Source: Candidatus Omnitrophota bacterium
GTDB taxonomy: Bacteria > Omnitrophota > Koll11 > Tantalellales > Tantalellaceae
Assembly: GCA_015231715.1 (NCBI GenBank)
Contig: JADGBB010000054.1
Location: 1 to 8,115 of the forward strand
Length of the DNA stretch: 8,115 nucleotides
Reading direction: 5' to 3'
Below the pieces are notes generated by a model. That model saw only the letters and a list, made by a program, of their open reading frames with translations. It was not told where the DNA came from and searched no databases. Each line of letters begins with the position of its first letter. Positions within the stretch are counted from its first letter, which is position 1. Below, one piece after another: positions 1-8,115 of the stretch. The translations under genes and the position numbers were made by a program.

Positions 1-1
1 T

Positions 2-424
2 ATTGAGATGTTTTCATTTGGTGTTATGATATGTTTTGAGGATATTTTTCCGGCTATAGCGAGAAAATTTGTAATTAACGGTGCGGATTTTCTAGTTAAT
101 ATGACTAATGACGCTTGGTTCGGCGACACTTGCGCTTCTAAACAACATCTTATAGCGTCAGTTTTTAGAGCTGTTGAGAATAAAGTGCCTGTTATAAGGT
201 CAGCGAATACAGGTATATCTTGTTTTATCGATCCGTTTGGACGGATAAGCGGAGTAATAGAGCTAAACGGAAAAAGTAATTTTGTCGAAGGCATACAAGA
301 ACAGGCTATAGTGACATATCCTTTGAAGTCTTTATATACAAGATTCGGCGATATTTTCGTTTTGTTGTGTTTTATAATTTTATGTGTTTATTTAGGAATT
401 AAAAACGGAGGAAAAAATGGGTAA
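2..424 (+). CDS. lnt: Apolipoprotein N-acyltransferase, C-terminal part (5' end outside window)
   Basis: This is the C-terminal end of Lnt, the inner-membrane enzyme that adds the third acyl chain to the N-terminal cysteine of lipoproteins. The frame is open to the left edge, so the upstream membrane helices and the first catalytic residues (Glu and Lys of the nitrilase-type triad) lie outside the window. What remains starts just before the nucleophile motif ICFEDIFP, whose Cys codon is at 32-34. It is followed by the family block NMTNDAWFGD, a QHL segment, an R-A-x-E motif and a SANTGIS/IDPFGR block, all typical of Lnt. A hydrophobic segment (codons at about 338-391) is the final membrane helix. 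The TAA stop lies 8 nt inside the next gene, so lnt is translationally coupled to exbB. The methionine codon at 8 is internal and not a start. Only the missing N-terminal part leaves doubt. Confidence 0.95.
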   Translation: MEMFSFGVMICFEDIFPAIARKFVINGADFLVNMTNDAWFGDTCASKQHLIASVFRAVENKVPVIRSANTGISCFIDPFGRISGVIELNGKSNFVEGIQEQAIVTYPLKSLYTRFGDIFVLLCFIILCVYLGIKNGGKNG

Positions 425-1148
425 TAAATGGAAATTATATTTGATGGTCGTGATAATTGTTTTATTTGCATCAGGCGCTGTTTTCGCTTCCGGAGGCATT
501 GAAAAATACATACCCGGGAGCGACTCCGGAATGACTTTATGGCAGGTTATAAAGTCAGGCGGCGAAATAATGATAGTTTTGGCGCTTATGTCTATAGCTC
601 TTTTAGCTTTGGTTATTTATTGTTTTATTACTATATCTACCGAAAAACTTCTTCCCTCAGCATTTAAGGGCAATATCATCACACTTATGGAATCCGGCAA
701 ATATGACGAAGCCAGGATAATGTGCGAAGGTAAAAATAATCTTGTCGCCGAAATGGTTACGATAGGATTGGCGAAACAACCGGAAGGGATAAGAGCGGCG
801 GATGAGGCCATGGAAGACGCTATGAAAAAAAAGATATCAACGCTTTGGCAGAGATTAAGTTATTTGTCGGATATCGCGAGTATTTCTCCTATGGTCGGTT
901 TGCTGGGAACGGTACTGGGAATGATACAGGCGTTTAATGTTATTGCTTTTCAGACAGGAGCCGTTAAGCCTATACTTTTGGCAAGCGGAATATCAAAGGC
1001 TATGATCACAACTGCCGGCGGGCTTATTTTGGCGATACCTGCGATGATATTTTACGCATATTTCAGGGGTGTAGTCGAAACTATTTCCTCGGGAGTCGAA
1101 CATGTATCTAATGAAATATTAAAACTAGTAACACAAAGGAAAAAGTGA
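417..1148 (+). CDS. exbB: ExbB/TolQ/MotA-family proton channel subunit
   Basis: Inner-membrane subunit of an ExbB-ExbD type proton channel, which turns proton flow into motion of a partner protein. At 243 residues it has a cleavable-looking signal peptide (about 1-24, ending AVFA), a first helix at about 49-73, a cytoplasmic loop rich in charged residues (about 75-148), and two conserved helices at about 151-173 and 190-217. The family signature SPMVGLLGTVLGM (157-169) and TTAGGLILAIPA (198-209) are intact. Thr165 and Thr199 match the pore threonines of ExbB and TolQ. The start is set by GGAGG at 407-411 with a 5-nt spacer. It overlaps lnt by 8 nt and is 1 nt from exbD. Family membership is certain. 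The choice of ExbB over TolQ rests on the extra N-terminal signal peptide and the neighbours and is less sure. Confidence 0.93.
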   Translation: MGNKWKLYLMVVIIVLFASGAVFASGGIEKYIPGSDSGMTLWQVIKSGGEIMIVLALMSIALLALVIYCFITISTEKLLPSAFKGNIITLMESGKYDEARIMCEGKNNLVAEMVTIGLAKQPEGIRAADEAMEDAMKKKISTLWQRLSYLSDIASISPMVGLLGTVLGMIQAFNVIAFQTGAVKPILLASGISKAMITTAGGLILAIPAMIFYAYFRGVVETISSGVEHVSNEILKLVTQRKK

Positions 1149-1149
1149 T

Positions 1150-1578
1150 ATGGATCTAACACTTCTAAAAAAAGATTATATTGATCATGCGCCTAAAGTT
1201 CAGATGGCGCCGCTCATTGACATTGTTTTTTTACTTCTCATATTTTTTATGTCGGCTTTTATATTTCAAGAGCTTGAGACTGAAATAGATATAACAGTGC
1301 CTGTGTCAAAAGAAGCTAAAGACACACAAAGAACGCCCGGTGAAATTATCATAAACGTTCGGGAAGACGGCACGGTTGTTGTCAATCAGAGAACATTGAG
1401 TTTTGATGATCTTGATAAAATGCTTGCAAGGGTCACGGAGCTTTACAGCAATCAGCCTGTTATTATTAGGGGCGACAGGGAGACTCGGCATAAGAACATA
1501 ATTAAGGTGCTTGATATTTGTGCTTCGCGCGGGATATGGAATGTTTCGTTCGCGACCATGAATGAGGAGAAGCGATAA
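1150..1578 (+). CDS. exbD: ExbD/TolR-family proton channel subunit
   Basis: Partner of the upstream ExbB. It supplies the proton-carrying aspartate of the channel and a periplasmic domain. The 142-residue protein has a short cytoplasmic N-terminus, one membrane helix (about 21-41) and a periplasmic domain of about 100 residues, which is the usual ExbD/TolR plan and length. The motif MAPLIDIVFLLLIFFM (19-34) contains Asp24, the counterpart of Asp25 in E. coli ExbD and Asp23 in TolR. The periplasmic part has the family's beta strand (IIINVREDGTVVVN) and the VIIRGDRETRHKNIIKVLD segment, in which the aspartate of RGD is commonly conserved. The start is supported by AAGGA at 1136-1140. The stop TAA shares one base with the ATG of the TPR gene (TAATG), indicating tight coupling. 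ExbD and TolR cannot be told apart from sequence alone. Confidence 0.93.
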   Translation: MDLTLLKKDYIDHAPKVQMAPLIDIVFLLLIFFMSAFIFQELETEIDITVPVSKEAKDTQRTPGEIIINVREDGTVVVNQRTLSFDDLDKMLARVTELYSNQPVIIRGDRETRHKNIIKVLDICASRGIWNVSFATMNEEKR

Positions 1579-3896
1579 TGTGGCCTAGGGCGATGTTGAT
1601 ATTCCTTGGAGTGGCGATTATTTCTACATTTGCTTTTGCTGAGGAGAAATTAGTTGTTGATAAGGCAGAGGTTGAGCAGTTTGATTTTGCTAATGGGCTA
1701 TTGTCTAGAGGGATGTTTGATATGGCTTCCGGCGAATATGAGACATTTATTAAAGAGTATCCGAAAAGTGAATTAATTGAAGATGCTTCGATAAGATGTG
1801 CCGAGGCTTATTTTTATGACGGGGATAATGAAAAAGCGATACTAAAATTAAGGGCTTTTAAAAATGATTTTCCGAATAGCAGTCTATTGAAAAGTGCTTC
1901 GTTTAGATTGGCTCAAGCCTTGTTCATTTCGGAAGATCTTAAAAATGCAAGGTCCGAACTTGATTTATTGTATAAGTCTTTAGAAAAAACGGATGAATTA
2001 TTAGGCGGTATAATTTACTATTTGGCGGAGATAGAATTTAAAGAAGGAAAAACAGCAGATGCTATTAAAAATTTTAATGAGCTTATTGCCTTGGGCACGC
2101 AGGGGGAGTACTTGCAGTTTGCCTATACAACCTTAGCCAGAGCGTACACTATTCAGGGTGAAAAGGATAATGCTATAGAGGCTTATAGAAAAGTAATATT
2201 GATCGCGGAAAATGAAAAAATAAAAAACAAAGCTTTAATAGATCTTGCGGAATTATTAAGTGATAAAGGTGAAGTTGATGAAGCAAGAAAAATATATTCA
2301 GGTCTTCTTGAGAGGGTGCAGTTTGATGAAATATCGGAAAATGCGCTTTTAGATTTTATCCATCTTGAATACAAGCAAAACTCGGCAGAACAAACGGAAA
2401 GCTTGTATAAAAAATATTTTGATAAGGTTCAAAACGTTATCGTAAAAAGCAAAATACATTTTATTTTAGGAAACACTTTGTATAAGCAAAATAAATTCGA
2501 TGAGGCTTTTGATGAATTTAAAAATGTAGTTGATATGGCTGATGACGAAGAAATTAAAGAGAGGTCTTATGCTAATATGCTTTGGTCGCTTTATGAATCA
2601 GGTAAATACGAAAAATTATTTTCCCTGGAAAAAGAGAGGGGTGAAATAAACGGAACTCCTGAGATCCTGTTTATTAGAGCAAGAGCATTTGATAAAACAA
2701 GTGATACTGAAAATGCTGTTAAAACTTTTGAAACAATAATCGCCGATCATAAAGACAGTTCTTTTTACAAAGATTCTTTATATGAACTTGCGTCGATATA
2801 CGATAAAAATAACGATACCGTGAATGCCTCCCGTGTTTTAAACACATTCATTAACGCATATCCTGATGATGAAAGAATTAATTTTTCGCTTATTATGCTG
2901 GGTAGAAACAACATTAAGTCAGGAGATCTGGAAACAGCCGAAAAAGCCTATATAAAATTTTTAGAGTCAAAAAAAGAAGATACAAATAAAGAGCTAGTGC
3001 AGTTTGAACTGGGAAATATTTACATTAAGCAAAAAGATTATACTAAACTTATACCGTTATACGAATCTTTCGCTTTGATGTATAGCTCTTCTGTCCGTTT
3101 GCCTTTTGTTAAGTATTGGCTTGCTAAATCGTATAAGGCTATAGGAGAAACCGGCAAAGCTTTAGAATGCTTTAAAACTATTTCCGAAAGTGATAGTGAA
3201 TACGCTCCTAAAGCTTTGGAAACTATTGGTTATATGCATTTTGAAAATAAAGAATATGATCTTGCCGCCAGTGAATATTTGGAACTGATGAAAAAGTTCC
3301 CTGAGTATTTATTGCCTGAAAAAGTATATTTATGGGCGGCCGAACATTATTTTGATAAAGAAGCTGCTACCGATTCACAATTTATACTTGAACAGCTGGC
3401 TAATAAGTACCCTGACAGCATAGCAGGTACAGTGTCATTGTATATGATGAGCGAGAATAACAGAAAACTTGGAAATGCGCTTGAAGCTATTACATCGCTA
3501 AAAGAGCTATTGTCTAAAGACATTCAGCATCCATATTTAGAAAAAGCTTCGCTTTCATTAGGTAAATCATATTTATTTCTCAATAATCACGATTTCGCTA
3601 TAAGGGCTTTTGAAAAAGCTTTAGCCGATAGCGCAAGCAATGCAGTTAGCGCTGAAGCTAGAATGGGGATAGGGGAAGCAAAAAGCAAAAAAGGCGATTA
3701 CATTGAAGCCGCAAAATCTTATTTGATGGTAGCAATTTTATTTCAGGATTCATTGATGGAAGAAGAAGCATTGTTTAAAGCAGCAAAATCTTATGAGAAT
3801 GCAGGTAATAGAGAAAAAGCAGTGGAAATATATAAAGAGCTTGAGGGAAAATTTCCCGATGGCAAATATAAAACAACCCAAAAAGAACAGATATGA
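1578..3896 (+). CDS. Secreted multi-TPR repeat protein, probably periplasmic
   Basis: A 772-residue protein with a signal peptide (1-21, hydrophobic core LIFLGVAIIS, likely cleavage after AFA) and no lipobox cysteine, so it should be soluble in the periplasm and not a lipoprotein. The rest is almost entirely helical tetratricopeptide-type repeats of about 34-38 residues. They recur from about residue 36 to 760, with alternating A-x-x-Y/F and G-x-x-x-x-A patterns and YP-x-S or FP-x-S turns at about 61-64, 99-102, 428-430 and 611-614. Such arrays are protein-binding scaffolds; some resemble the BamD/CpoB (YbgF) style of repeat. CpoB is itself encoded with the Tol proteins in many bacteria. Here the gene follows exbD directly (1-nt overlap, GAGGAG at 1564-1569) and overlaps the VWA gene by 4 nt, so I infer that it bridges or regulates the ExbBD-VWA machine. 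No enzymatic domain is visible. Confidence 0.88.
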   Translation: MWPRAMLIFLGVAIISTFAFAEEKLVVDKAEVEQFDFANGLLSRGMFDMASGEYETFIKEYPKSELIEDASIRCAEAYFYDGDNEKAILKLRAFKNDFPNSSLLKSASFRLAQALFISEDLKNARSELDLLYKSLEKTDELLGGIIYYLAEIEFKEGKTADAIKNFNELIALGTQGEYLQFAYTTLARAYTIQGEKDNAIEAYRKVILIAENEKIKNKALIDLAELLSDKGEVDEARKIYSGLLERVQFDEISENALLDFIHLEYKQNSAEQTESLYKKYFDKVQNVIVKSKIHFILGNTLYKQNKFDEAFDEFKNVVDMADDEEIKERSYANMLWSLYESGKYEKLFSLEKERGEINGTPEILFIRARAFDKTSDTENAVKTFETIIADHKDSSFYKDSLYELASIYDKNNDTVNASRVLNTFINAYPDDERINFSLIMLGRNNIKSGDLETAEKAYIKFLESKKEDTNKELVQFELGNIYIKQKDYTKLIPLYESFALMYSSSVRLPFVKYWLAKSYKAIGETGKALECFKTISESDSEYAPKALETIGYMHFENKEYDLAASEYLELMKKFPEYLLPEKVYLWAAEHYFDKEAATDSQFILEQLANKYPDSIAGTVSLYMMSENNRKLGNALEAITSLKELLSKDIQHPYLEKASLSLGKSYLFLNNHDFAIRAFEKALADSASNAVSAEARMGIGEAKSKKGDYIEAAKSYLMVAILFQDSLMEEEALFKAAKSYENAGNREKAVEIYKELEGKFPDGKYKTTQKEQI

Positions 3897-5500
3897 ACGA
3901 TAGAACAAAAACTATACTTTTATTGGCCGTTATTATTTCGGTTATAACACATTTGGTCTTTTTTGTTTCATCTAATTTTATGAAGCTTTCCGGCATTAAA
4001 GGCATAGAAGATGAAACTATGCGACTTTTTAAAATTAACCGGGTGGTTGATGATAAAGAAATAGTTAAACTTTTTGAAAGCTCTAAGAAAGAGATCCCCG
4101 AAATAAAAACTTCAGGCGGTTTGCAGGAAGACGCAGGCGCGGTTCTTGATAAGATGGAGTTCGAGAGTCTGCATAAAGATAAGACCCCTGTAAAAGAAGA
4201 TATCAAGCTGGATGAAGTAGACCTTCGAAAAAAACAAGAAAGTTCAATGAACAAAGAAATACTTGATTCATTGAGCAGTAAAGAAAAAAATGATTATGCC
4301 CCGGATGAAAGATCTTTGACCGAACCATACTATTCTAAAGAAGAAATAGTAACTGCCGATGCCGACAGGATAAATATTGTTACAGCTGATATTAAAGGTG
4401 ATCCGGCAGACAAGAGCATGAGGATGACAGTTCCCGTAACGGGACTTAAAAACATATTAAAGAGAAACCTTACCGGTGGATCCAAAGAAGTATACAATAA
4501 AAGAAAAGCCGATAACTACAAAAGAATTAAAGAATACAAGGATATGAGTTCTTTTCTTAATATTCAAGTGTCAAAATTTTCAAATGCAGGCGGTAAAGAT
4601 AAATATTTTAAAATAGAGATCTCTGCGAAAGACCCGGCTTCTTTGGGATCAATGCCTAAAGAAATTATATTTCTGATCGATTCATCTAAAAGCATGACAC
4701 AAGAAAAACTTGAATATGTAAAAAAAGGGATAGTGGATTGTTTATGGATGCTTTCAAAATCCGACAGATTTAATATTGTTGCTTTCCGTGGAGACCTTGT
4801 TAAATTCAGTCCGAGCTCCGTAAAGGTCACAGATAAGGCTTTATTAGATGCCGAAATATTCGTGCGGGAACTTGAGGCTGTTGGACAGACAGATGTGGAG
4901 CAGGCTCTTTTGAAGATCGTAAAAGAAGAACCCGGAATGAATCCTTCGTACATACTGCTTATAACAGACGGCAGGCCGACTACCGGTGAAATGGATTCTA
5001 AACAAATAATACAAGAAATAACTAAAAGAAACAATATGGAAAGAAGTATTTTTTGTTTCGCCGGAGGCAACAGGATCAACAAATATCTCTTAGATTTTAT
5101 AGCTTATCAGAATAGAGGATTCACAAAGTTTGCTGAGAGAAACTTTGTGATACAAAAGGAATTAATAAATCTGTTTAAAGAGATCAACGATCCAATCCTT
5201 ACAAATGTCAGATACCGCCTAAACGGTTTGGACATGAAAGGTATTTATCCCAAGAACCTGCCGGATTTTTATATGGGCAGGAATTTTACCATCTACGGTA
5301 CATACACTACTGAAGATATTTTTTCTATGCAGCTTTTAGGTGAAATGGGAAAAGATACAAAAGAGCTGATATTTCAAAGATCCTTGAAAGAAGCTTTAGA
5401 AGGAGAGCCTGAAATATTTGAAAAATGGGAGTTCAGTAAAAAGTTCTATCTTATAAGCCGCGAATCAATGGGTGAAAGTAACGATAGTTTTAGAGATTGA
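3893..5500 (+). CDS. Membrane-anchored VWA protein with TonB/TolA-like N-terminal helix
   Basis: A 535-residue protein with one N-terminal membrane helix (about 8-28) preceded by charged residues, so the bulk should face the periplasm. The helix has Ser16 and His20, the S-x3-H pattern found in TonB and TolA anchors. Residues about 31-220 form a charged, low-complexity linker with no recognised domain. A VWA domain follows (about 255-435) with all MIDAS positions: DSSKS (Asp263, Ser265, Ser267), Thr333 in GQTD, and Asp359 in ITDG. After it, NDPILTNVRYRLNG and IYPKNLPDFYMGR resemble the strands that follow VWA in inter-alpha-trypsin-inhibitor-type (VIT/VWA) proteins, but no VIT domain precedes it. 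The start overlaps the TPR stop as ATGA, and no good Shine-Dalgarno is visible before it, so translation probably depends on coupling. The VWA assignment is firm; the role as an ExbBD-driven effector is inference. Confidence 0.9.
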   Translation: MNDRTKTILLLAVIISVITHLVFFVSSNFMKLSGIKGIEDETMRLFKINRVVDDKEIVKLFESSKKEIPEIKTSGGLQEDAGAVLDKMEFESLHKDKTPVKEDIKLDEVDLRKKQESSMNKEILDSLSSKEKNDYAPDERSLTEPYYSKEEIVTADADRINIVTADIKGDPADKSMRMTVPVTGLKNILKRNLTGGSKEVYNKRKADNYKRIKEYKDMSSFLNIQVSKFSNAGGKDKYFKIEISAKDPASLGSMPKEIIFLIDSSKSMTQEKLEYVKKGIVDCLWMLSKSDRFNIVAFRGDLVKFSPSSVKVTDKALLDAEIFVRELEAVGQTDVEQALLKIVKEEPGMNPSYILLITDGRPTTGEMDSKQIIQEITKRNNMERSIFCFAGGNRINKYLLDFIAYQNRGFTKFAERNFVIQKELINLFKEINDPILTNVRYRLNGLDMKGIYPKNLPDFYMGRNFTIYGTYTTEDIFSMQLLGEMGKDTKELIFQRSLKEALEGEPEIFEKWEFSKKFYLISRESMGESNDSFRD

Positions 5501-5504
5501 GGAG
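5499..5504 (+). promoter_or_regulatory. Shine-Dalgarno GAGGAG that fixes the deaminase start
   Basis: GAGGAG lies 6 nt before the ATG at 5511 and incorporates the last two bases of the TGA stop of the VWA gene. This favours 5511 over the in-frame GTG at 5472, which would add 13 residues overlapping the VWA gene. It also suggests re-initiation by ribosomes finishing the VWA reading frame. Confidence 0.8.
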
Positions 5505-5510
5505 TCCGGT

Positions 5511-5978
5511 ATGATCGAATACATGATATTGGCTATTGAAGAAGCTAAAAAAGGAATAGATAGTTTTCACGGCGGGCCCTTTGGAGCCGTTATAGTTAAG
5601 GGCGATGAGATAATAGCTAAAGCACATAACACCGTTTTATTGACTAAGGATCCTACCAAGCATGCAGAGATGAACGCTATCAGTGAAGCCAGCCGCAAAT
5701 TAAAAAATTTTGATCTTTCCGGATGCTCAATATATTCCACAACTGAACCTTGCCCTATGTGTTTTTCAGCAATACATTGGGCAAAGATAGATAAAATTTA
5801 TTTTGGTACAACTATAGAAGATGTCGCAAAGCTTGGATTCAATGAACTCGCGGTCTCGAACGAAACATTAAAAAAATTGGGAGATCTTAAAGTAGAATTG
5901 ATAAACGCTACAATGAAAAAAGAATGCAGGGAACTTTTAAGCTACTGGAAGGGTTTAAGTAATAAAGGAACATATTAA
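5511..5978 (+). CDS. guaD: GuaD-like nucleobase deaminase (cytidine/deoxycytidylate deaminase fold)
   Basis: A 155-residue zinc-dependent deaminase. The zinc and catalytic residues are all present: His51 and Glu53 in KHAEMNAI, and Cys81 and Cys84 in EPCPMC. GGPFGAVIV (21-29), the N-x-V and DPTKHAE block, and the AIHWA segment after the cysteines are as I recall them in guanine deaminase of the Bacillus GuaD type, whose usual length (about 156) also matches. That enzyme converts guanine to xanthine and ammonia in the cytoplasm. A C-terminal YWKGLSNKGTY resembles the swapped tail of GuaD. A related tRNA adenosine deaminase (TadA) is less likely because of this tail and the GGPFGA loop, but substrate cannot be proved here. 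The gene sits 10 nt after the VWA gene and 12 nt before moxR, an odd place for purine salvage. An in-frame GTG at 5472 would lengthen it but lacks a Shine-Dalgarno. Confidence 0.85.
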   Translation: MIEYMILAIEEAKKGIDSFHGGPFGAVIVKGDEIIAKAHNTVLLTKDPTKHAEMNAISEASRKLKNFDLSGCSIYSTTEPCPMCFSAIHWAKIDKIYFGTTIEDVAKLGFNELAVSNETLKKLGDLKVELINATMKKECRELLSYWKGLSNKGTY

Positions 5979-5984
5979 GGAGGT
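5977..5984 (+). promoter_or_regulatory. Consensus Shine-Dalgarno AAGGAGGT before moxR, overlapping a stop codon
   Basis: AAGGAGGT is the strongest ribosome site in the window, 6 nt before the ATG at 5991. Its first two bases are the last two of the deaminase TAA stop. Both the strength and the overlap suggest that MoxR is made in higher amounts than its neighbours while remaining coupled to the same transcript. Confidence 0.75.
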
Positions 5985-5990
5985 AGTAAA

Positions 5991-6983
5991 ATGTCTGAAG
6001 GAATAACAGCTATAAATGAAAAGGTTCAGAGAGAAAGTTTGTTTATTGATGAACTTTTAGCGGAAATAAGAAAAGTTATAATTGGCCAGGATTATCTGAT
6101 CGAAAGGCTTTTGGTAGGGCTTTTGGCTAACGGACATGTCTTGATCGAAGGTGTACCGGGTCTTGCGAAAACCCTATCCGTAAAAGTTCTGGCTATGGCT
6201 ATCAGCACAGGTTTTCAAAGACTGCAGTTTACACCTGATCTTTTACCTGCCGACCTTATCGGAACGCTTGTTTATAATCCTAAAGACGGGAACTTTACTA
6301 CAAAGAAAGGGCCGATATTCTCGAACATAATTCTCGCCGATGAAATAAATAGGGCTCCCGCTAAAGTTCAAAGCGCTTTACTTGAAGCTATGCAGGAAAA
6401 ACAGGTAACAATAGGACACGAAACATTTAAACTTGATGAACCTTTTTTGGTTCTAGCGACACAAAACCCCATAGAACAGGAAGGAACATATCCTTTGCCT
6501 GAAGCGCAGGTAGACAGGTTCATGCTTAAAGTAAAAATAGGCTATCCAACAAAAGAAGAAGAAAGAAAAATACTTCAAAGCATGGCCAAAACAGATAAAA
6601 AACTTGATATCAGATCTGTAGTAACACCGGCAAAAATACTAGAAGCAAGAAAAATGGTCAATGATATTTATATGGACGAAAAAATAGAAAAATATATAGT
6701 AGACATAGTCTTCGCGACAAGAAATCCAAAAGATTACGGCATGGCTGAGCTGGAAGATCTAATAGAGTTCGGCGCTTCTCCAAGAGCGACAATAAACCTG
6801 GCACTAGCTGCAAAAGCATACGCATTTATAAAAAGAAGAGGATATGTAACGCCTCAAGACATAAAATCCATAGGCCCCGATGTCCTAAGACACAGAGTAA
6901 TAGCCAGCTACGAAGCGGAAGCCGAAGAAAAAACATCGGAAGACCTAGTAAAACGAATATTCGACGAAGTAGAGGTGCCGTAA
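5991..6983 (+). CDS. moxR: MoxR-family AAA+ ATPase
   Basis: A 330-residue cytoplasmic AAA+ chaperone of the MoxR family. These ATPases form rings and act with VWA-domain partners to remodel or activate proteins, often envelope or metal-centre proteins. Visible elements in order: the IGQ motif (31-33), Walker A GVPGLAKT (54-61), the LLPADLIGT pre-sensor block (84-92), Walker B IILADE (113-118), the INRAP segment next to it, sensor-1 ATQNP (156-160), and EGTYPLPEAQVDRF (164-177), which carries the conserved arginine region. A C-terminal lid with GASPRAT and a VLRHRV segment near the end completes the family plan, and the length is normal. It is followed by a DUF58 gene, its usual partner, but a 256-nt spacer separates them. 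Family assignment is certain; the substrate is unknown. Confidence 0.97.
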   Translation: MSEGITAINEKVQRESLFIDELLAEIRKVIIGQDYLIERLLVGLLANGHVLIEGVPGLAKTLSVKVLAMAISTGFQRLQFTPDLLPADLIGTLVYNPKDGNFTTKKGPIFSNIILADEINRAPAKVQSALLEAMQEKQVTIGHETFKLDEPFLVLATQNPIEQEGTYPLPEAQVDRFMLKVKIGYPTKEEERKILQSMAKTDKKLDIRSVVTPAKILEARKMVNDIYMDEKIEKYIVDIVFATRNPKDYGMAELEDLIEFGASPRATINLALAAKAYAFIKRRGYVTPQDIKSIGPDVLRHRVIASYEAEAEEKTSEDLVKRIFDEVEVP

Positions 6984-6995
6984 AAGACAGACGGA

Positions 6996-7038
6996 CGAAA
7001 GTCGAACGTGCGAAAGTCGAAAGTTGAAGGGCGAAGGG
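6996..7038 (+). repeat. Degenerate heptamer tandem repeat, about six units of CGAARGK
   Basis: Units read CGAAAGT (6996), CGAACGT (7003), then one extra G, CGAAAGT (7011), CGAAAGT (7018), TGAAGGG (7025) and CGAAGGG (7032). Three of the six are identical. It starts 12 nt after the moxR stop. No function is evident; it looks like a short satellite that has expanded by slippage. Confidence 0.6.
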
Positions 7039-7123
7039 GTAGCTTAGGATTTAAGAACAATATGAATGAGTGAATTTTGAGGAGTAACTACTCAGAAATG
7101 AAATATAAAATCGATATGTCGAA

Positions 7124-7207
7124 GAAATTTTGGGGTGACGCGGTGTAAACTTTGTGTGTTTTTATAAAACACACAAAGTTGGAACGGCGGCAGGACCCGA
7201 AAATTTC
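7124..7207. repeat. Large nested inverted repeat between moxR and the DUF58 gene
   Basis: An outer pair of arms, GAAATTTTGGGGT at 7124-7136 and ACCCGAAAATTTC at 7195-7207, matches at 12 of 13 positions. Inside it, a perfect 15-bp inverted repeat (7148-7162 with 7166-7180) has a 3-nt TAT loop. The strands between inner and outer arms (11 and 14 nt) are G-rich and mostly unpaired. As RNA this would be a long stem with an internal loop. A 5-nt direct repeat TGTCG flanks it (7117-7121 and 7211-7215), which could be a trace of an insertion or chance. Confidence 0.65.
7148..7180 (+). other. Perfect 15-bp hairpin with TAT loop, not a classic terminator
   Basis: Left arm AACTTTGTGTGTTTT and right arm AAAACACACAAAGTT pair completely. 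The stem is AT-rich and is not followed by a T-tract on either strand (GGAACGG follows on +), so it does not fit an intrinsic terminator. It may instead stabilise or mark the processing of the moxR mRNA end, separating expression of MoxR from DUF58. Confidence 0.7.
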
Positions 7208-7227
7208 CCTTGTCGGCAAACAAATTT

Positions 7228-7231
7228 GAGG
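7228..7231 (+). promoter_or_regulatory. Shine-Dalgarno GAGG for the DUF58 gene
   Basis: GAGG lies 8 nt before the ATG at 7240 and supports that start. The in-frame GTG at 7234 is too close to this site to be used. The rest of the 6984-7239 spacer shows the two repeats listed and no convincing promoter. Confidence 0.55.
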
Positions 7232-7239
7232 TAGTGGGT

Positions 7240-8115
7240 ATGATCCCAAAAGAAGTTTTAAAGAAAGTTCGAAAGATACAGATCACGACGACCCGCAAAG
7301 TCATGGACGTCTTCGCCGGCCGATACCAAAGCGTTTTTAAAGGTTCAGGCATGGAATTCAACGAGGTCCGTGAATATAACCCGGGAGACGAGATCAGGTC
7401 TATAGACTGGAACGTTACAGCCCGCATGGGACATCCTTTTGTTAAAAAATTCATTGAAGAAAGGGAACTCACAATAATTTTTCTTTTAGATGTATCAAGC
7501 TCTTGCCGTTTCGGAACAAGAACGCGTTTAAAAAGAGATACGGCGGCAGAACTTTGTTCCGCGATAGCTTTTTCGGCTATAAATAACAATGACAAAGTCG
7601 GCATGATAACTTTTACGGACCGGGTTGAAGAATTCATACCCGCGCGAAAAGGCGTTAAACACGTTCTTAGAGTTATAAGAGAATCGCTTTATAATGAGCC
7701 TAAAGGTATCGGTACAGATATTAATCAAGCATTGAATTATTTAAATACGGTTGTAAAAAGGCGCGCGGTAGTTTTTATCGTTTCGGATTTTATCGCGGGA
7801 GATTTTAAAAAAACGTTATCAGCAGCTAATTCCAGACATGATGTTATTGCTGTAAGAGTCAAGGATCCCGCGGAAGAAAGTATTCCGGATGTAGGCATCA
7901 TAAACGTGCATGACGCTGAAACCGGGAAAAATTTTGTTCTAGACACTTCAAACCCAAGAATACAAAAATTTTATAATAAAGGATCACATGAAGTTCAGGA
8001 AAAAGTAAAAGATATATTCAAATCCGCGGGAGTCGATGTCATAGAGATAAATACAAATGAGTCATATGTTGACCCATTAGTTAAATTTTTTAGATTGAGA
8101 GAAAGAAAAAAAAGA
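7240..8115 (+). CDS. DUF58 (VWA-like) protein, stop codon not seen
   Basis: The frame stays open from the ATG at 7240 to the right edge (292 residues), so the stop lies just outside. Proteins of this family form without membrane helices are about 290-300 residues long, so it is nearly whole. The DUF58 signature is clear: GSGMEFNEVREYNPGDEIR (35-53) followed by SIDWNVTAR. The VWA-like fold that follows has the metal-site residues DVSSS (Asp84, Ser86, Ser88), Thr159 in GIGTD and Asp183 in IVSDF. No signal peptide or membrane helix is visible, so it should be cytoplasmic, on the same side as MoxR. MoxR-DUF58 pairs are widespread and often lead into operons with BatA/BatB-type VWA proteins, which may follow outside the window. 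DUF58 function is not well defined; a role as the MoxR adaptor is inferred from the pairing. Confidence 0.95.
   Translation, partial: MIPKEVLKKVRKIQITTTRKVMDVFAGRYQSVFKGSGMEFNEVREYNPGDEIRSIDWNVTARMGHPFVKKFIEERELTIIFLLDVSSSCRFGTRTRLKRDTAAELCSAIAFSAINNNDKVGMITFTDRVEEFIPARKGVKHVLRVIRESLYNEPKGIGTDINQALNYLNTVVKRRAVVFIVSDFIAGDFKKTLSAANSRHDVIAVRVKDPAEESIPDVGIINVHDAETGKNFVLDTSNPRIQKFYNKGSHEVQEKVKDIFKSAGVDVIEINTNESYVDPLVKFFRLRERKKR

Follow-up and report, generated by a model that had tools for sequence, protein, structure and literature searches.

A four-gene cluster of Omnitrophota predicted to encode an ExbB-ExbD-driven periplasmic VWA transducer with a TonB-like anchor

An 8,115-nucleotide stretch of DNA from a Candidatus Omnitrophota bacterium (GenBank assembly GCA_015231715.1, contig JADGBB010000054.1, positions 1 to 8,115 of the forward strand; the whole stretch is called the window here) encodes a VWA protein whose N-terminal helix resembles the membrane anchor of TonB, and the gene lies close behind exbB and exbD. 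This arrangement raises the question of whether the ExbB-ExbD motor acts on the VWA protein. The analysis presented here suggests that four consecutive genes, in the order exbB-exbD-TPR-VWA, probably encode a dedicated proton-driven periplasmic transducer.

The four genes lie on the forward strand of the window and are tightly packed. They encode an ExbB/TolQ-like motor subunit (417..1148, 243 amino acids; Pfam MotA_ExbB, 1.6e-28), an ExbD/TolR-like subunit (1150..1578, 142 amino acids; Pfam ExbD, 1.1e-26), a periplasmic TPR protein (1578..3896, 772 amino acids; Pfam TPRs) and a VWA force-transducer-like protein (3893..5500, 535 amino acids; open reading frame and Pfam VWA). A single base separates exbB from exbD, exbD overlaps the TPR gene by one base, and the TPR and VWA genes overlap by four. 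Only one copy of exbD is present, and neither tolB nor pal was found within the 8.1-kb window. A preliminary description of this DNA had placed the VWA gene two genes after exbD, which agrees with the order seen here. It had also given the feature as 3893..4678; the start is correct, but the end falls just before the codon of the metal-site residue Asp263 (4679), and the full feature is 3893-5500 plus the three preceding genes.

The anchor helix of the VWA protein (residues 3-27, 3899..3973, forward strand) was modelled as a confident helix by AlphaFold2 (AF2) and is conserved. It contains Ser16 (codon 3938-3940) and His20 (codon 3950-3952), as the preliminary description had proposed, and a Pfam scan of the protein gave neither TonB_C nor TolA, again as claimed there. 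A search for the VWA family matched 115 proteins including that of the window (best other E-value 9e-140); among the first 92 matches, all 15 with an organism in the name belonged to Omnitrophota, Omnitrophus or Tantalella. The anchor alignment comprised 172 rows (92 proteins and 80 loci, not de-duplicated), from which 12 were removed as truncated or with an unclear helix, leaving 160. Free variation of Ser16 and His20, which would speak against the proposal, was not seen; the 160 anchors were strongly constrained, with His in 143 and Tyr in 17 at the His column, and Ser in 128, Ala in 24 and Thr in 8 at the Ser column. None of the remaining helix columns had a single residue in more than 60% of the 160 rows. 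Judged from this alignment, the Ser/His pattern is more than chance. All loci with a Tyr anchor in this set were of the Hydrogenedentota type, and Tyr was also seen in one relative from Verrucomicrobiota, L244, that has no motor linked to it. The labels Omnitrophota-type and Hydrogenedentota-type are those of the present analysis; some of the records are titled otherwise (L029 as Deltaproteobacteria, L064 as Nitrospiraceae) or carry no phylum (L037, L041, L049, L063).

In E. coli, Ser16 and His20 of TonB touch Ser34 and Trp38 of ExbB in a cryo-electron microscopy structure, according to excerpts of PMC12215075. Alignment with E. coli ExbB and TolQ placed the Ser34 equivalent of the window ExbB at Ser59 (591-593), which is Ser in 44 of 57 family rows. 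For comparison of anchor and contact, 102 VWA-ExbB pairs were obtained from 160 loci (57 were dropped for lack of an ExbB on the stretch and one for lack of a helix), of which 79 were distinct, with close relatives among them. Wherever the anchor residue was not His (25 pairs, 24 with Tyr and one with Gln), the Ser34 equivalent was replaced, by Gly in 24 and by Ala in one. Among the 54 pairs with a His anchor it was Ser in 49, Gly in four and a gap in one, i.e. Ser in 49 of the 53 that could be scored. As a control for shared ancestry, all well-filled columns of ExbB, ExbD, TPR and VWA proteins, which have the same history, were scored in the same way. The columns of ExbB Ser59 and Ile60 ranked at the top, both for the 44 Hydrogenedentota-type pairs (1,742 columns, phi 0.82, next 0.74) and for all 79 pairs (1,658 columns, phi 0.89, next 0.735). 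The natural covariation points at the ExbB residue expected to form the contact. On a 50-row tree built from the VWA heads, at least seven anchor changes and at least five changes of the ExbB residue were counted, few of them independent. The single Gln in place of the anchor His is found in L235. Four loci (L055, L064, L215 and L232) combine a His anchor with ExbB Gly and are possible intermediates of the change of contact.

The residues of the motor known to matter are kept. Thr165 (909-911) and Thr199 (1011-1013) of the window ExbB correspond to E. coli ExbB Thr148 and Thr181, and both are Thr in 57 of 57 family rows; Pro208, the equivalent of E. coli Pro190, is Pro in 52 of 57. The proton-site residue of ExbD, Asp24 (1219-1221), is Asp in 58 of 59 aligned sequences. 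A signal-peptide-like extension (417-520) precedes the first conserved helix of ExbB and presumably resembles those of long ExbBs whose N-terminus lies in the periplasm.

The loci for the survey of gene linkage came from an alignment-based genome scan (the best 80 of 108; a scan with a single protein gave none). Among these, which come from named genome records, the order ExbB-ExbD-TPR-VWA on one strand was found in 52 of the 54 loci with at least 3.9 kb upstream, and the TPR-VWA pair in 73 of the 75 with at least 300 nucleotides upstream. In the later counts, loci from further genomes were added and de-duplicated by VWA protein. The full order was then present in 30 of 32 Omnitrophota-type loci (exceptions L029 and L038) and in 40 of 41 of the Hydrogenedentota type, where the exception, L213, has ExbB and ExbD with no TPR gene assigned; adjacency of motor and TPR gene thus holds for the window and for 70 of the 73 loci of the two types. 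Family-level matches occurred in 25 of 235 Omnitrophota genomes (above 440 bits) and in 60 of 68 genomes of the phylum Hydrogenedentota (above 250 bits). A two-ExbD arrangement was seen in none of the first 80 loci, in which 58 ExbD genes were found overall.

Downstream of the VWA gene the window contains a cytidine/guanine-deaminase-like gene (5511-5978, beginning with ATG), a MoxR ATPase (5991-6983; Pfam) and a DUF58 protein (about 7240-8115, where the window ends; Pfam), all on the forward strand. These neighbours would allow the VWA protein to be a client of MoxR and DUF58, in a MoxR-VWA assembly or metal-insertion module with exbBD nearby only incidentally. This is very improbable, for among the 35 loci with 6.5 kb downstream only four had MoxR and four had DUF58, while ExbBD-TPR lies nearly always upstream in the Omnitrophota and Hydrogenedentota types. 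With the deaminase present in five of the same 35 loci, all three were rejected as core partners. When the first 80 loci were inspected, a good many of them short, the complete deaminase-MoxR-DUF58 trio followed the VWA gene only in L001, L003, L004, L005 and L006. The deaminase gene of the window begins right after a shortened VWA end (5460-5511); the VWA protein is about 30 residues shorter than its relatives and lacks their conserved tail LS.KYGI.TPYD. At the other side of the cluster lies the 3' part of a gene for a carbon-nitrogen hydrolase (2-424, forward strand).

The VWA motor appears to be a dedicated one, since 11 of 12 VWA-bearing genomes contained at least two ExbD genes and, in G001 and G002, a second ExbB-ExbD pair lies away from the VWA cluster, beside a TonB-like gene whose match to TonB_C is weak. 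At least one ExbD was present in all 12 genomes, as also in the Verrucomicrobiota genome G013, and a TonB_C match was found in eight of the 12.

Behind the anchor, the VWA protein continues with a linker (residues 46-214, 4028..4534, forward strand) that is mostly disordered, with a predicted local distance difference test (pLDDT) value below 50 over most of its length and AF2 disorder covering most of residues 53-212, ahead of the head. The family alignment showed one short conserved stretch in it, F-R/K-h-x-x-V, near residues 46-51. A D-box-like pattern, taken from excerpts of PMC10907165, was enriched in linkers of the Hydrogenedentota type (21 of 44, against a mean of 4.1 and a maximum of 9 in shuffled sequences), and was found in none of three Verrucomicrobiota linkers (shuffled mean 0.2). 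The C-terminal part (residues 215-535, 4535..5497, forward strand) was assigned from the AF2 model and fold comparison as an ITIH-like VWA head with a hybrid-like beta domain, and Foldseek/VIA gave VWA-type matches mainly over residues 251-464. The metal-site residues Asp263, Ser265, Ser267, Thr333 and Asp359 are intact in the window and invariant in the family alignment. No VIT domain was found by Pfam in the window VWA protein.

The TPR protein of the window has a signal peptide and lacks a lipobox. Within its family, a simple pattern gave a hydrophobic N-terminus for 72 of 78 members and a lipobox for one. Above the cut-offs, NCBIfam tol_pal_ybgF (CpoB-type, the top match) and OM_YfiO (BamD-type) each matched seven stretches, although repeats of this kind make matches to TPR families easy to obtain.

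Taken as a machine, ExbB, by analogy a pentamer, and ExbD, as a dimer, would form a canonical proton motor, with the VWA protein docking outside the first transmembrane helix of ExbB through Ser16 and His20 of its TonB-like anchor. The long flexible linker would extend into the periplasm and bear the ITIH-like head. As the metal-site motif of the head is intact, the head probably holds a ligand by way of a divalent metal bound there. For the secreted TPR protein, with CpoB/YbgF among its best family matches, the most likely role is that of an adaptor or partner of the head. Proton flow would then pull on the head or cycle it, as is thought for TonB and TolA. Docking is the best supported of these steps; beyond it, we infer complex formation, force, metal binding, the role of the TPR protein and the target, as well as the movement of the VWA head by proton flow.

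The same docking evidence, i.e. the constraint on Ser and His and the covariation with ExbB, would also fit a VWA protein that is docked on ExbBD by its TonB-like anchor and is not moved, its head and the TPR protein serving to regulate or plug the motor or to form a local scaffold. VWA heads are usually binding modules, and the tight pairing of the TPR and VWA genes also agrees with such a role. However, the ExbB and ExbD pore residues are kept, all but one of the 12 genomes retain more than one ExbD, and the layout of anchor, long linker and head mirrors that of TonB and TolA. A regulator or scaffold is therefore considered unlikely, and a force transducer is preferred.

The relation of the anchor to TonB was followed with sequence profiles. 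The first approximately 140 positions of the VWA family profile matched four short Omnitrophota proteins (per-genome E-values 6e-5 to 7e-4, over 235 genomes), which combine an S-x3-H helix with a C-terminal TonB_C domain (three above the Pfam cut-off, the fourth just under). A 47-position profile of the anchor matched these four TonB proteins with E-values of 1e-6 to 1e-4 in a small set of fetched stretches. When run over the 80 VWA loci, the anchor profile gave below 1e-3 only 47 VWA frames and two apparent split-off VWA starts. A profile that is short and hydrophobic gives little ground for inferring homology. Within this limit, the VWA anchor may be a TonB-type anchor by descent that carries another head.

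Several results weigh against a dedicated transducer with a TonB-type anchor. The full SHLS motif, defined as S-x3-H-x6-L-x3-S in excerpts of PMC12215075, is not present: seven positions after the His, Ser or Ala was found in 148 of 160 rows, and the window has Ser27 there and Lys31 at the eleventh position. The Leu and second Ser of this motif are, according to the same excerpts, less conserved in Ton as well. The equivalent of E. coli ExbB Trp38 is not Trp in the window, and no conserved Trp was found in the family; it was also absent from the three Omnitrophota TonB-type ExbBs compared. In the VWA-head tree only two independent pairs were well supported, too few for significance, and in these the ExbB residue moved in the matching direction an average of 0.8 times and never in the opposite one. 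The four TonB proteins had been chosen by the profile match itself, and for the two TonB-like proteins encoded next to ExbBD in G001 and G002 the anchor profile gave E-values of only 0.02 and 0.4. The strict D-box pattern was not found in the window linker, and its enrichment in Omnitrophota-type linkers was weak (8 of 32, against a shuffled mean of 3.0 and a maximum of 7). In the TonB-type ExbB-ExbD pairs of G002 (L119) and G001 (L120) a TPR gene adjoins ExbB, so that the VWA cluster is not alone in having a TPR neighbour. The genome G009 had a single ExbD match, which lies in its VWA cluster (L122, contig C48). A TonB_C protein of G009 is encoded on a separate contig (C50); this protein may draw on the motor of the VWA cluster, unless the assembly is incomplete.

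To the same side belong the Verrucomicrobiota, in which the preliminary description's expectation of a VWA gene near exbBD, which held in the two other types, mostly failed: a motor lies upstream in only 3 of 22 loci and none was found in 19. Some match to the family was present in 174 of 288 Verrucomicrobiota genomes, and 23 of the better matches were studied (20 without and three with a motor upstream). All 20 of the former genomes contain ExbD genes, but in none was ExbD found within 10 kb of the VWA match (the nearest was at 10.4 kb, in G420), which counts against strict linkage. The S-x3-H pattern was nevertheless kept in 18 of these 20 (L243-L265 except L257, L259 and L263; L244 has Thr/Tyr and L251 Thr/His), as in all three with a motor, and a Kiritimatiellia VWA protein (P0093), a homologue at an E-value of 4e-36, carries it as well. 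Retention of the pattern without a nearby motor would be expected if the anchor were an inherited remnant of TonB that acts as a mere membrane tether, with the linkage to exbBD being historical. A tether, however, needs no His, yet His/Tyr and Ser are restricted over three phyla, and the change of anchor tracks the ExbB contact residue. Moreover, the unlinked anchored proteins may share an unlinked ExbBD, copies of ExbD being held by 20 of 20 of these genomes, or may have lost their motor. A tether is accordingly judged improbable, although less so than the MoxR connection, and docking on the motor remains the preferred role of the anchor.

A further kind of protein appeared in Verrucomicrobiota. 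In four genomes, a protein of about 490-500 amino acids with a squalene-hopene-cyclase/TED-like toroid domain (L266:3917-5380, L268:3557-5062, L269:4000-5499 and L270:3116-4609; Pfam PF13243, E-values 5e-6 to 1e-11) is encoded after a TPR-TPR-ExbB-ExbD-ExbD cluster. An N-terminal S-x3-H helix precedes the toroid domain in the three that were translated (L266, L268 and L270), and the toroid appears to be a third type of head borne by a TonB-type anchor. Six Verrucomicrobiota regions were compared in which ExbD genes stand side by side in twos or threes. In five of them there is no third ExbD, and the next large protein was a toroid-domain protein in all four of the five that were checked (L267 excluded); in the sixth region (L271) the next large protein had no clear family. 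None of the six regions gave a VWA-profile match, and a tie between the published two-tolR layout and the VWA family in Verrucomicrobiota was rejected on this ground.

These observations can be read together as a family of TonB-type anchors that swap heads (TonB_C, ITIH-like VWA, and the alpha-alpha-toroid of Verrucomicrobiota), each head being served by an ExbBD of its own. The VWA branch would have rebuilt its docking contact, with the anchor His changed to Tyr and the Ser34 equivalent of ExbB to Gly, from which it would follow that the His is not chemically required for coupling. This proposal is offered tentatively and is rated lower than the transducer itself, because the matches to the TonB anchor were modest over 235 genomes and two TonB-like proteins matched poorly.

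The preliminary description knew of no characterised example of this layout. The general idea is already in print, as Williams-Jones et al. (2025; PMC12204202) proposed force transducers consisting of a transmembrane helix with the SHLS motif and a vWA head, beside TolQR-like motors with a TPR gene. They modelled docking via the conserved His and stated that no deletion phenotype has been reported. Their main text names Proteobacteria, Planctomycetes, Verrucomicrobia, Bacteroidetes and Rhodothermaota, and the strings 'Omnitroph' and 'Hydrogenedent' are absent from it. A search of open-licence PMC articles returned in its listings none on the Omnitrophota or Hydrogenedentota branches, the single-ExbD order, the similarity to the TonB anchor, the coupling of Ser/Gly with His/Tyr, or an ITIH-like head.

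The window system is a variant of this predicted and still uncharacterised class of transducers, likened by its features rather than by sequence comparison with the Tichowtungia protein. It shares with the Tichowtungia-type proteins a transmembrane helix with Ser and His, a disordered linker, a vWA head, and TolQR-like and TPR neighbours. Unlike the published examples from the Planctomycetes-Verrucomicrobia-Chlamydiae group, which have a pair of tolR-like genes, the window has a single ExbD in the order ExbB-ExbD-TPR-VWA; its head is ITIH-like, whereas the published heads were likened to YfbK; and it has only the Ser and His of the full SHLS motif present in those proteins. A second published family, TPH-vWA, has a transpore helix with Asp in place of TolR and no exbD gene, whereas the window has exbD, the anchor Ser and His, and no Asp in the anchor core.

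With TonB, the window protein has in common Ser16 and His20 in a single N-terminal helix and a motor of ExbB and ExbD. It differs in having a VWA head and no TonB_C, in lacking the Leu and second Ser of SHLS, and in the TPR gene of its cluster. The Tol-Pal system with CpoB likewise combines a motor, an anchored transducer (TolA) and a secreted TPR protein, but the window has no TolA C-terminal domain and no tolB or pal, and its TPR protein is long (772 amino acids) with many repeats. Unlike ITIH, the window protein is membrane-anchored and bacterial, and no N-terminal VIT domain was found in it.

New evidence for this class comes from the lineage, from its gene order and from the substitutions that occur in nature where the motor is predicted to be contacted. 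This evidence is independent of structure prediction; it supports a predicted class of proton-driven machines in the periplasm and extends it to two phyla that the main text of PMC12204202 does not name. The lineages in which the anchor His became Tyr (once Gln) together with a changed Ser34 equivalent of ExbB provide a natural test of the role of His20 in TonB. If the proposed function is correct, ExbBD motors would power other targets besides outer-membrane receptors and Pal, and the output of the system, a metal-dependent ligand, would become searchable through the metal site of the head.

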